Source: Gemmatimonadetes bacterium SCN 70-22 (GTDB taxonomy: Bacteria > Gemmatimonadota > Gemmatimonadetes > Gemmatimonadales > Gemmatimonadaceae). Taken from it: DNA of 64,000 nt. The stretch lies in assembly GCA_001724275.1 (NCBI GenBank), contig MEDZ01000017.1, positions 1 to 64,000 on the forward strand. The letters are read 5' to 3'. Both the position numbers and the translations under genes were made by a program. The notes below the pieces were generated by a model. That model was not told the origin of the DNA. It ran no database searches and saw only the letters and a program-made list of their open reading frames with translations. Shown piece by piece: positions 36,918 to 38,141 of this stretch (the first letter of the stretch is position 1; the number at the start of each line of letters is the position of its first letter).

Positions 36918-37325
36918 CTACGCCGCGTAGGCGAGGCTCACGGCGCGCCGCGCCCCGCGCTTGAGTGCGCGATGCACGGCGCGCGCATACCGAACGAAGT
37001 TCGCGCCGGCCCACGGATGCCGCGCGAAGAACTCGTGCGGCAGCATGTCGCCCTTGAGTCGATTGCAGCGAGCGCAGGCGGTCACGAGGTTTCCGGGGGC
37101 GTGCGTCCCCCCGCGGGCGAGGGGATAGACGTGGTCGAGGGTGGCCTCCTCGAGCGCGAGCCGCTCGGCGCAGTACACGCAGCGCCGGCCGCAGTCACGC
37201 ATGGCGGCGTGCTTCAGCGCGCGTTTCAGGTCTCGGTACTGCAGGTGACGGTCGCGGTCATCAGGGGCGCGACGCGCGCGCGGCGAACGAGGAAGGACCA
37301 CCCGAAGCATCCCACGTCGAGACAT
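36918..37325 (-). CDS. HNH endonuclease domain protein
   Basis: A 135-residue protein. The HNH domain (about 40-100) has zinc cysteines CVYC and CARC around EATLDHVYPLARGGTHAPGN, with the central DH and downstream N of an HNH fold. The tail is basic and ends at residue 135. Such free-standing HNH proteins may be nucleases of restriction, repair or unknown systems. No intron or phage genes are near. A terminator-ended structured RNA lies immediately upstream on the same strand. Confidence 0.85.
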   Translation of the reverse strand: MSRRGMLRVVLPRSPRARRAPDDRDRHLQYRDLKRALKHAAMRDCGRRCVYCAERLALEEATLDHVYPLARGGTHAPGNLVTACARCNRLKGDMLPHEFFARHPWAGANFVRYARAVHRALKRGARRAVSLAYAA

Positions 37326-37338
37326 TGCACCTCGCCGG

Positions 37339-37502
37339 AAAAGACGACACCCCGCCCCGGCAAGCCGGGGCGGGGTGTCGCGAGTGGAGGAGAGCCGATG
37401 CCCGGTGCCGCGAGTCGTCGCGGCACCTGGGGTTCGCCGGTCGAGAATCTGCGAACTCGGGGCATCTCCCTCCTGTCATGCGGGGACCGATGGCCCCGCG
37501 CC
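37339..37502 (-). ncRNA. candidate structured small RNA or leader with intrinsic terminator
   Basis: In the 333 bp between the HIT and HNH genes the minus strand can form a GGAGGGAGATGCCC / GGGCATCGGCTCTCCTCC closing helix, two internal hairpins (one is 37404-37427) and then a 17-bp perfect terminator followed by TCTTTT. The closing helix contains AGGAGGGAG 5' of an ATG (a short frame starting MPRVRRF), so folding would hide that ribosome site. A promoter-like pair lies just upstream. It matches no riboswitch I know. Rest of this gap holds the HIT terminator. Confidence 0.5.
37345..37380 (-). terminator. intrinsic terminator upstream of HNH gene
   Basis: A perfect 17-bp stem with a 2-nt loop, followed on the minus strand by TCTTTTCC. 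It should end transcripts before the HNH gene unless antitermination occurs. Confidence 0.8.
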
Positions 37503-37508
37503 GGGATA

Positions 37509-37537
37509 CTTATGTTGCATAACGATTGATCGCGCAA
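37509..37537 (-). promoter_or_regulatory. promoter-like sequence for the candidate small RNA
   Basis: On the minus strand TTGCGC (37537-37532), 17 bp, then CATAAG (37514-37509) in a locally AT-rich stretch; transcription would begin near 37502. Matches to the consensus are partial. Confidence 0.35.
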
Positions 37538-37592: not shown

Positions 37593-37622
37593 CCGCGAGG
37601 CCGCCGTGAGGCGGCCTCGCGG
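37593..37622 (-). terminator. intrinsic terminator after HIT gene
   Basis: A perfect 13-bp stem CCGCGAGGCCGCC / GGCGGCCTCGCGG with a 4-nt loop, followed on the minus strand by CGTTTTCG, 37 bp after the HIT stop. Confidence 0.8.
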
Positions 37623-37658
37623 TCGGACGAAGGCGGCGTCGTTATGCGCCGAGCGCCG

Positions 37659-38141
37659 TCAGGCGCTCATCACCGACAGGCGACGCGCGATGTGCTGGCG
37701 TACCGGGTCGCGCAGCTCGGCGATGATCCGCGCCGCCATCGCGTCGAGCAGCGTCCGGTCCGGCATCGTCGACCCGGCGAAGGGGAGCGGGATGTCGAAC
37801 CCGTCGCCCGCGCGGCGGGGAATGAGGTGCACGTGGTAGTGGAAGACGTCCTGTCCCGCGGCCTCCCCCGAGTTCACCACCAGGTTCATGTCCTCCGCCC
37901 CGTTCAGGCGCCGGACCACCGGCGACAGGCGCAGCGCCACGTCGAACAGGTGCATGGCCAGCTCGGGCGGAATGTCGGTGAGATTCTCGTGATGCTCGCG
38001 CGGGACGACCAGGACGTGCCCGAGGTTCACCGGCTGGATGTCCATGAACGCGATCGCGCTGGAATCCTCGTAGCACATGGATACCTCTCCGGCCCCATTG
38101 ATGAGGTCGCAGAAGATGCAGTGGCGGCCCGGCGCGGTCAT
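37659..38141 (-). CDS. HIT family nucleotide hydrolase
   Basis: A 160-residue protein with an N-terminal CIFCDLI zinc-type motif and the histidine triad HYHVHLIPR (near residues 106-114). Such HINT/Fhit-like enzymes hydrolyse nucleoside phosphoramidates or AMP adducts. MTAPGRHCIFC is the natural start; the frame upstream is not conserved-looking. It has its own intrinsic terminator. Confidence 0.92.
   Translation of the reverse strand: MTAPGRHCIFCDLINGAGEVSMCYEDSSAIAFMDIQPVNLGHVLVVPREHHENLTDIPPELAMHLFDVALRLSPVVRRLNGAEDMNLVVNSGEAAGQDVFHYHVHLIPRRAGDGFDIPLPFAGSTMPDRTLLDAMAARIIAELRDPVRQHIARRLSVMSA

Follow-up and report, generated by a model that had tools for sequence, protein, structure and literature searches.

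A putative translation-dependent transcription attenuator ahead of an HNH endonuclease gene in Gemmatimonadaceae

Introduction

Attenuators of the trp type consist of a leader ORF and an intrinsic terminator upstream of the gene, with the leader ORF carrying runs of control codons and stopping before the terminator. In the pil1 locus of Streptococcus gallolyticus, which features an own promoter, a leader ORF with a Shine-Dalgarno (SD) sequence and an intrinsic terminator reached by this ORF, it was demonstrated experimentally that termination is prevented by a ribosome arriving at the terminator, so that transcription of the next gene rises (PMC3894217). The frame there changes through slippage at GCAGA repeats, and only some cells therefore read into the terminator (PMC3894217). 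In the bmrB-bmrCD system of Bacillus subtilis, the coding region of the leader ORF likewise contains the intrinsic terminator, and less read-through occurs when the leader start codon is lost; antiterminator and anti-antiterminator structures were predicted in addition, and the system is induced by ribosome-targeting antibiotics (PMC4191407). In duf1127 of Sinorhizobium meliloti, the ribosome-binding site of the upstream ORF is masked by pairing with C-rich codons inside this ORF, which was proposed as a gauge of ribosome availability, with Rho-dependent termination and the opposite sign, i.e., translation promotes termination (PMC12218461).

The leader described here, located ahead of a small HNH endonuclease gene, shares the class features of pil1 and bmrB, namely a leader ORF with SD and start codon and an intrinsic terminator overlapped by this ORF (66/66 loci, and also the terminator-bearing loci of Gemmatimonas). 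The architecture and its conservation agree with a control of transcription by translation of the leader. In contrast to pil1, it has no slipped repeats, its frame is always open and its SD is sequestered by an anti-SD of the leader itself. It differs from bmrB in that no antiterminator was seen and the controlled gene is a nuclease, and from trp-type attenuators in the absence of conserved control codons, of a stop before the terminator and of an antiterminator. Judged by its sequence and that of its relatives, the element probably acts in cis as an attenuator of HNH transcription that depends on translation of the leader. A literature search found no work on such a leader in Gemmatimonadota. 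The element appears to represent a family-wide RNA switch of Gemmatimonadaceae that has not been described before and that, compared with pil1, would add an SD gate to a translated attenuator.

Parts of the element and their surroundings

The element occupies positions 37537-37338 on the minus strand of the window, i.e., the whole stretch of 64,000 nt that was analysed, and is situated between a HIT-family gene (end 37659) and the HNH gene (start 37325). It is composed of a promoter, a 5' hairpin, a three-way junction formed by the hairpins P2 and P3 and the closing helix P1, and a 17-bp terminator, with the HNH gene directly downstream (Table 1). A promoter-like pair, a hairpin, a three-way junction and a terminator with U-tract had been named in a first-pass annotation of this DNA, and all of them were located where it had placed them. 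As the HIT gene is followed by a terminator-like hairpin of its own, the HNH leader looks like a separate transcription unit. The Rfam scan of the whole window gave 0 matches at curated gathering cut-offs, with matches at chance level only in the region of the element, and the earlier impression that the structure does not resemble a known riboswitch holds.

Table 1. Coordinates of the leader element and its neighbours in the window.
Feature	Position	Strand	Remarks
HIT-family gene, upstream neighbour	37659..38141	-	Pfam HIT 4.7e-23
Terminator-like hairpin 3' of HIT gene	37593-37622	-	Perfect, GC-rich, 13 bp, then CGTTTT; inverted-repeat search
Sigma-A type promoter (predicted)	37508..37537	-	-35 TTGCGC 37537-37532, 18-nt spacer, -10 ATAAGT 37513-37508; from sequence
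5' hairpin of leader RNA	37480..37501	-	Predicted fold; kept in G001/G002
SD of leader ORF and 5' strand of P1, AGGAGGGAG	37466..37474	-	Conserved GGAGG, predicted pairing
Leader ORF, 79 aa (MPRVRRF...)	37226..37465	-	Start 140 nt before HNH ATG; spans terminator
Hairpin P2 (GUUCGC...GCGAAC)	37432..37456	-	Predicted fold
Hairpin P3 (GGUGCCGCGA-CGAC-UCGCGGCACC)	37404..37427	-	Predicted fold; counterpart covaries in relatives
3' strand of P1 (anti-SD)	37388..37403	-	Pairs with SD and start codon; predicted fold
Intrinsic terminator	37338..37381	-	Perfect 17-bp inverted repeat, then UCUUUU; inside leader ORF
Own SD of HNH gene, GAGGTG	37333-37328	-	SD-start context conserved in relatives
HNH endonuclease gene, 135 aa	36918..37325	-	Pfam HNH_5 4.6e-13, HNH 9.9e-12

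A perfect 9-nt inverted repeat (TCGTTATGC / GCATAACGA, positions 37517-37525 and 37639-37647, 113 nt between the copies) flanks the HIT terminator and falls in the spacer of the HNH promoter; it may represent an operator or a recombination-site-like box. The motif GCATGAC occurs again just 5' of the leader SD, where G001 carries GCATAACG.

Distribution in Gemmatimonadaceae

A DNA search recovered the whole 200-nt stretch from two congeneric species, at 81% and 75% identity, and its terminator end from another genus. HNH orthologs were gathered across the class together with their upstream DNA, the best matches being Gemmatimonadaceae/Gemmatimonadetes MAGs, and yielded 69 non-redundant loci with a canonical HNH start preceded by GAGG. 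Almost all of these 69 loci feature the same order, i.e., promoter CTTGCG, SD and start codon, terminator and HNH gene. A covariance-model search with the leader normally returned one strong copy per genome. Matches at E <= 0.01 were obtained in up to 26 of the 35 sampled Gemmatimonadaceae genera, some of them being weak and the sequences used to build the model matching by construction; in the class sample outside this family, there were three weak matches only. Wherever the position of HNH is known, the element lies directly ahead of it, as read from the match coordinates against the HNH ortholog table for the genomes covered by that table.

This distribution bears on the question whether the element is a stand-alone, trans-acting small RNA with own promoter and terminator, next to which the HNH gene is incidental or served by an unseen promoter. 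The compact promoter-structure-terminator unit of ~165 nt and its strong fold would suit such an RNA. Nevertheless, this explanation is improbable in view of the position directly upstream of HNH and the normally single copy per genome. Moreover, a conserved start codon and a frame kept open across the terminator would have no role in it, and a constant seed is missing, because loop and hairpin sequences are not conserved. The first-pass annotation had left the choice between a small RNA and an attenuator; the former is improbable, and an attenuator of HNH is strongly favoured by the location directly ahead of this gene, normally once per genome.

Leader ORF and its start site

The leader ATG and the preceding AGGAGGGAG occupy positions 37474-37463. 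Among 28 diverse aligned sequences GGAGG is invariant, and the arrangement GGAGG-N3-(A/G)TG is conserved, with GTG replacing ATG in most of genus g24. An SD followed by (A/G/T)TG, mostly in this arrangement, was present in 66 of the 69 loci with canonical HNH start. Locus L044 has no good SD and was left out of the 66; judged by eye, its leader frame appears to end 5' of the terminator.

The start codon of the leader was picked by the SD alone, with no use of ORF length, and stops were counted from behind the first two codons up to the distal arm of the terminator. Within these limits, the leader frame contained 0 stops in 2545 codons (66 loci), compared with 21 and 22 in the other two frames and an average of 21.8 (minimum 10) in dinucleotide shuffles. 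The frame was open in 66/66 loci vs. a maximum of 57 after shuffling; as the loci are related, they are not 66 independent trials, and they span ~20 genera. The leader stop is located at least 34 nt beyond the start of the terminator stem in every locus. In the window, the leader ORF ends 100 nt inside HNH in a different frame, and in most loci it extends at least 100 nt into HNH out of frame. As far as sequence comparison reaches, the masked AGGAGGGAG site is a real start site.

Nevertheless, conservation of the start does not extend to the product. The pN/pS ratio is mostly 0.6-1.2 in the leader peptide vs. 0.05-0.17 in the body of HNH, and a value near 1 in most groups indicates that the act of translation and not the peptide is conserved. 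A conserved peptide was rejected for this reason. Of the short peptide (MPRVRRF...) that the earlier reading had considered as a target of control, the start codon and the open frame proved to be conserved, whereas its sequence is not under clear selection, which makes it a leader ORF rather than a product. In addition, common control codons were not found across the leader peptides. A functional small protein co-expressed with HNH, e.g., an inhibitor, could account for the conserved start and open frame as well as for the frame relative to HNH being mostly the same. It is nonetheless very unlikely, given these pN/pS values, the absence of any protein-family match for the leader peptide, its variable length and C-terminus and the fusion to HNH in several Gemmatimonas loci. 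A programmed frameshift from the leader ORF into HNH was rejected as well, since the frame offset differs between close relatives (g1 and g15 each contain offsets 1 and 2).

RNA fold and masking of the Shine-Dalgarno sequence

The predicted folding energy of the leader RNA amounts to -106.3 kcal/mol vs. -76.4 +/- 4.1 kcal/mol in shuffles (z = -7.2), with 0/200 shuffles being as stable, and without the terminator z is still -6.1. In most genera, the 45 nt 5' of the SD are likewise more stably folded than their shuffled versions (mean z -2.0). Pairing of the SD with the segment upstream of the terminator is predicted with a mean probability of 0.91 vs. 0.77 in shuffled sequences, and masking exceeds 0.8 in 51/66 loci vs. 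28/66 after shuffling. This masking is not universal, being weak in L068, L069, L071 and g14, and the GC-rich background is high (0.77).

Family-wide RNAalifold analysis of a MAFFT alignment recovered the terminator alone because P2 and P3 drift, and P1 and P3 were therefore tested within narrower groups. Across 23 sequences of g13, g20, g24 and g33, the named structure pairs in 90.9% of cells; double-change cells numbered 47 compared with 21.6 in shuffles (0/500 shuffles), and 3-11 when slid. Covariation is clearest in P3 (UA/AU/GC and UA/CG), in an SD-flanking pair (CG/GC/AU) and in the terminator (AU/GC). Within the genus of the window, represented by three sequences only, double changes were found at just five pairs. 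The compensatory base changes in relatives on which the first-pass annotation had let its proposal depend do exist.

Among the 28 aligned diverse sequences, the loop and hairpin sequences vary, and no conserved unpaired core other than SD and start codon was detected. This result and the lack of an Rfam match speak against a metabolite riboswitch or a protein-binding leader gating the SD. Even though a three-way junction closing on the SD is a common aptamer layout, this explanation is given very little credence.

Promoter and terminator

Transcription of the leader is expected to start near position 37501. Of 66 orthologous leaders, 61 have TTGCG at the place of the promoter, compared with 5 that have it in a control stretch. 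Simple consensus scans for sigma-70 promoters and terminators detected neither the promoter nor the terminator of the leader; both sites are supported by conservation, and the scans were not relied on. The -35/-10 spacers of the genera g13, g20 and g24 often carry CGTGTTACGNNGCAA or CACGTGACGCTGCA, a possible regulator site.

The terminator hairpin is present in 66/66 loci with a median of -30.8 kcal/mol; several genera have weak U-tracts (3-4 T of 8). Its position within the leader ORF had escaped the first-pass annotation and points to the mechanism. The 5' arm of the terminator pairs upstream with a probability of 0.31 vs. 0.44 in shuffled sequences, i.e., less than by chance, so no antiterminator is evident. 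An antiterminator was therefore rejected, as this arm has no conserved alternative pairing. Likewise, inspection of the region revealed no phase-variable repeats that could change the leader frame.

Proposed mechanism of attenuation

The comparison of related loci demonstrates, at the level of sequence, a promoter, a start site, an ORF open across the terminator, the terminator itself, a covarying SD-masking fold and the position before HNH. On this basis we infer that read-through increases when the leader is translated, and that this translation is in turn set by P1. The own promoter would yield a leader RNA with a short ORF, an SD able to pair with an anti-SD ~70 nt downstream and an intrinsic terminator within the ORF. 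A ribosome that binds the newly made SD ahead of anti-SD synthesis would follow the RNA polymerase into the terminator region and stop the terminator hairpin from closing. Transcription would then continue into HNH, whose translation would start from the SD of that gene (GAGGTG). Should ribosomes load slowly or be kept from loading, P1 would close over SD and start codon and leave the leader untranslated; the terminator could then form, releasing an RNA of ~165 nt.

Besides the weak U-tracts, the non-universal masking of the SD and locus L044, two further points count against this mechanism. Ribosomes elongating on a leader ORF that reaches into HNH out of frame could also hinder initiation of HNH, and bmrB, with its related layout, can respond oppositely to slowed translation owing to its antiterminator. 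An attenuator of opposite sign has to be weighed, in which leader translation represses HNH via an open antiterminator, as in bmrB, or via ribosomes crossing the HNH start out of frame. It could draw on bmrB, where the leader ORF contains a terminator and slowed translation elicits a response (PMC4191407), on the opposite sign of duf1127 in S. meliloti, where C-rich leader codons mask the ribosome-binding site (PMC12218461), and on the out-of-frame overlap of most leader ORFs with HNH. Nevertheless, the 5' arm of the terminator lacks a conserved alternative pairing, frames differ between close relatives, some ORFs stop before or at the HNH start, and removal of the bmrB start lowered read-through, so translation is needed there too (PMC4191407). 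The opposite sign is therefore considered unlikely, if somewhat less so than a small RNA.

An attenuator in which leader translation raises read-through could further serve as a gauge of ribosome loading, where the ribosome races the anti-SD and the nuclease is made only at high translation capacity, or when some factor opens P1. This extension is tentative and, on balance, rather doubtful. If true, it would amount to a family-wide translation-status sensor controlling a DNA-cutting enzyme in Gemmatimonadota. As a search rule, an intrinsic terminator kept within a leader ORF that is always open can be applied to other genomes in order to find similar switches, which structure-only searches can miss because sequence and hairpins drift.

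The HNH gene

The IscB protein of the HEARO (omega RNA) system features RuvC and HNH, and the present locus resembles this system in having a structured RNA beside a gene with an HNH domain. The HNH domain, the only one recognised in the protein, resembles that of IscB and Cas9. However, the protein comprises only 135 aa, matches only the HNH part of the respective models and remains far below the curated cut-offs (36 bits vs. a cut-off of 175 for the IscB model), and the leader has no match in Rfam. A guide RNA for the HNH protein was rejected on these grounds, i.e., no HEARO match and a protein corresponding to the HNH part only. The leader also suggests that this small HNH nuclease, otherwise uncharacterised, is under tight control.

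Dual coding over HNH was also rejected, as synonymous divergence is low only in the first ~24-36 HNH codons and not up to the leader stop. In g13, g20 and g24 (e.g., L046, L041, L161), codons 1-36 of HNH show about half the synonymous divergence of the remaining codons (0.23-0.32 vs. ~0.5). Since the low divergence does not end at the leader stop, it may reflect an RNA-level constraint at the HNH start.

Natural variation in Gemmatimonas and its neighbours

Changes of frame, and terminator loss accompanied by ORF fusion, illustrate how evolution retains and takes apart a translated attenuator. Such cases are found in g23, which probably corresponds to Gemmatimonas proper, judging from the named contigs matched (L075, Gemmatimonas phototrophica), and in its neighbours. 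Several of these loci keep a terminator, which the leader ORF spans, and in several of them the leader stop lies at or next to the HNH start (e.g., L145, L155, L160, L173, L186). In L182 and L184, an intrinsic-terminator-like hairpin is located inside an ORF that is open from the leader start codon and fused in frame to HNH. In these genera, too, a terminator ahead of HNH thus falls in an open frame with an SD. In loci without a strong terminator (e.g., L070, L151, L163, L174), the GGAGGATGATG start opens HNH directly, the ORF being fused to HNH.
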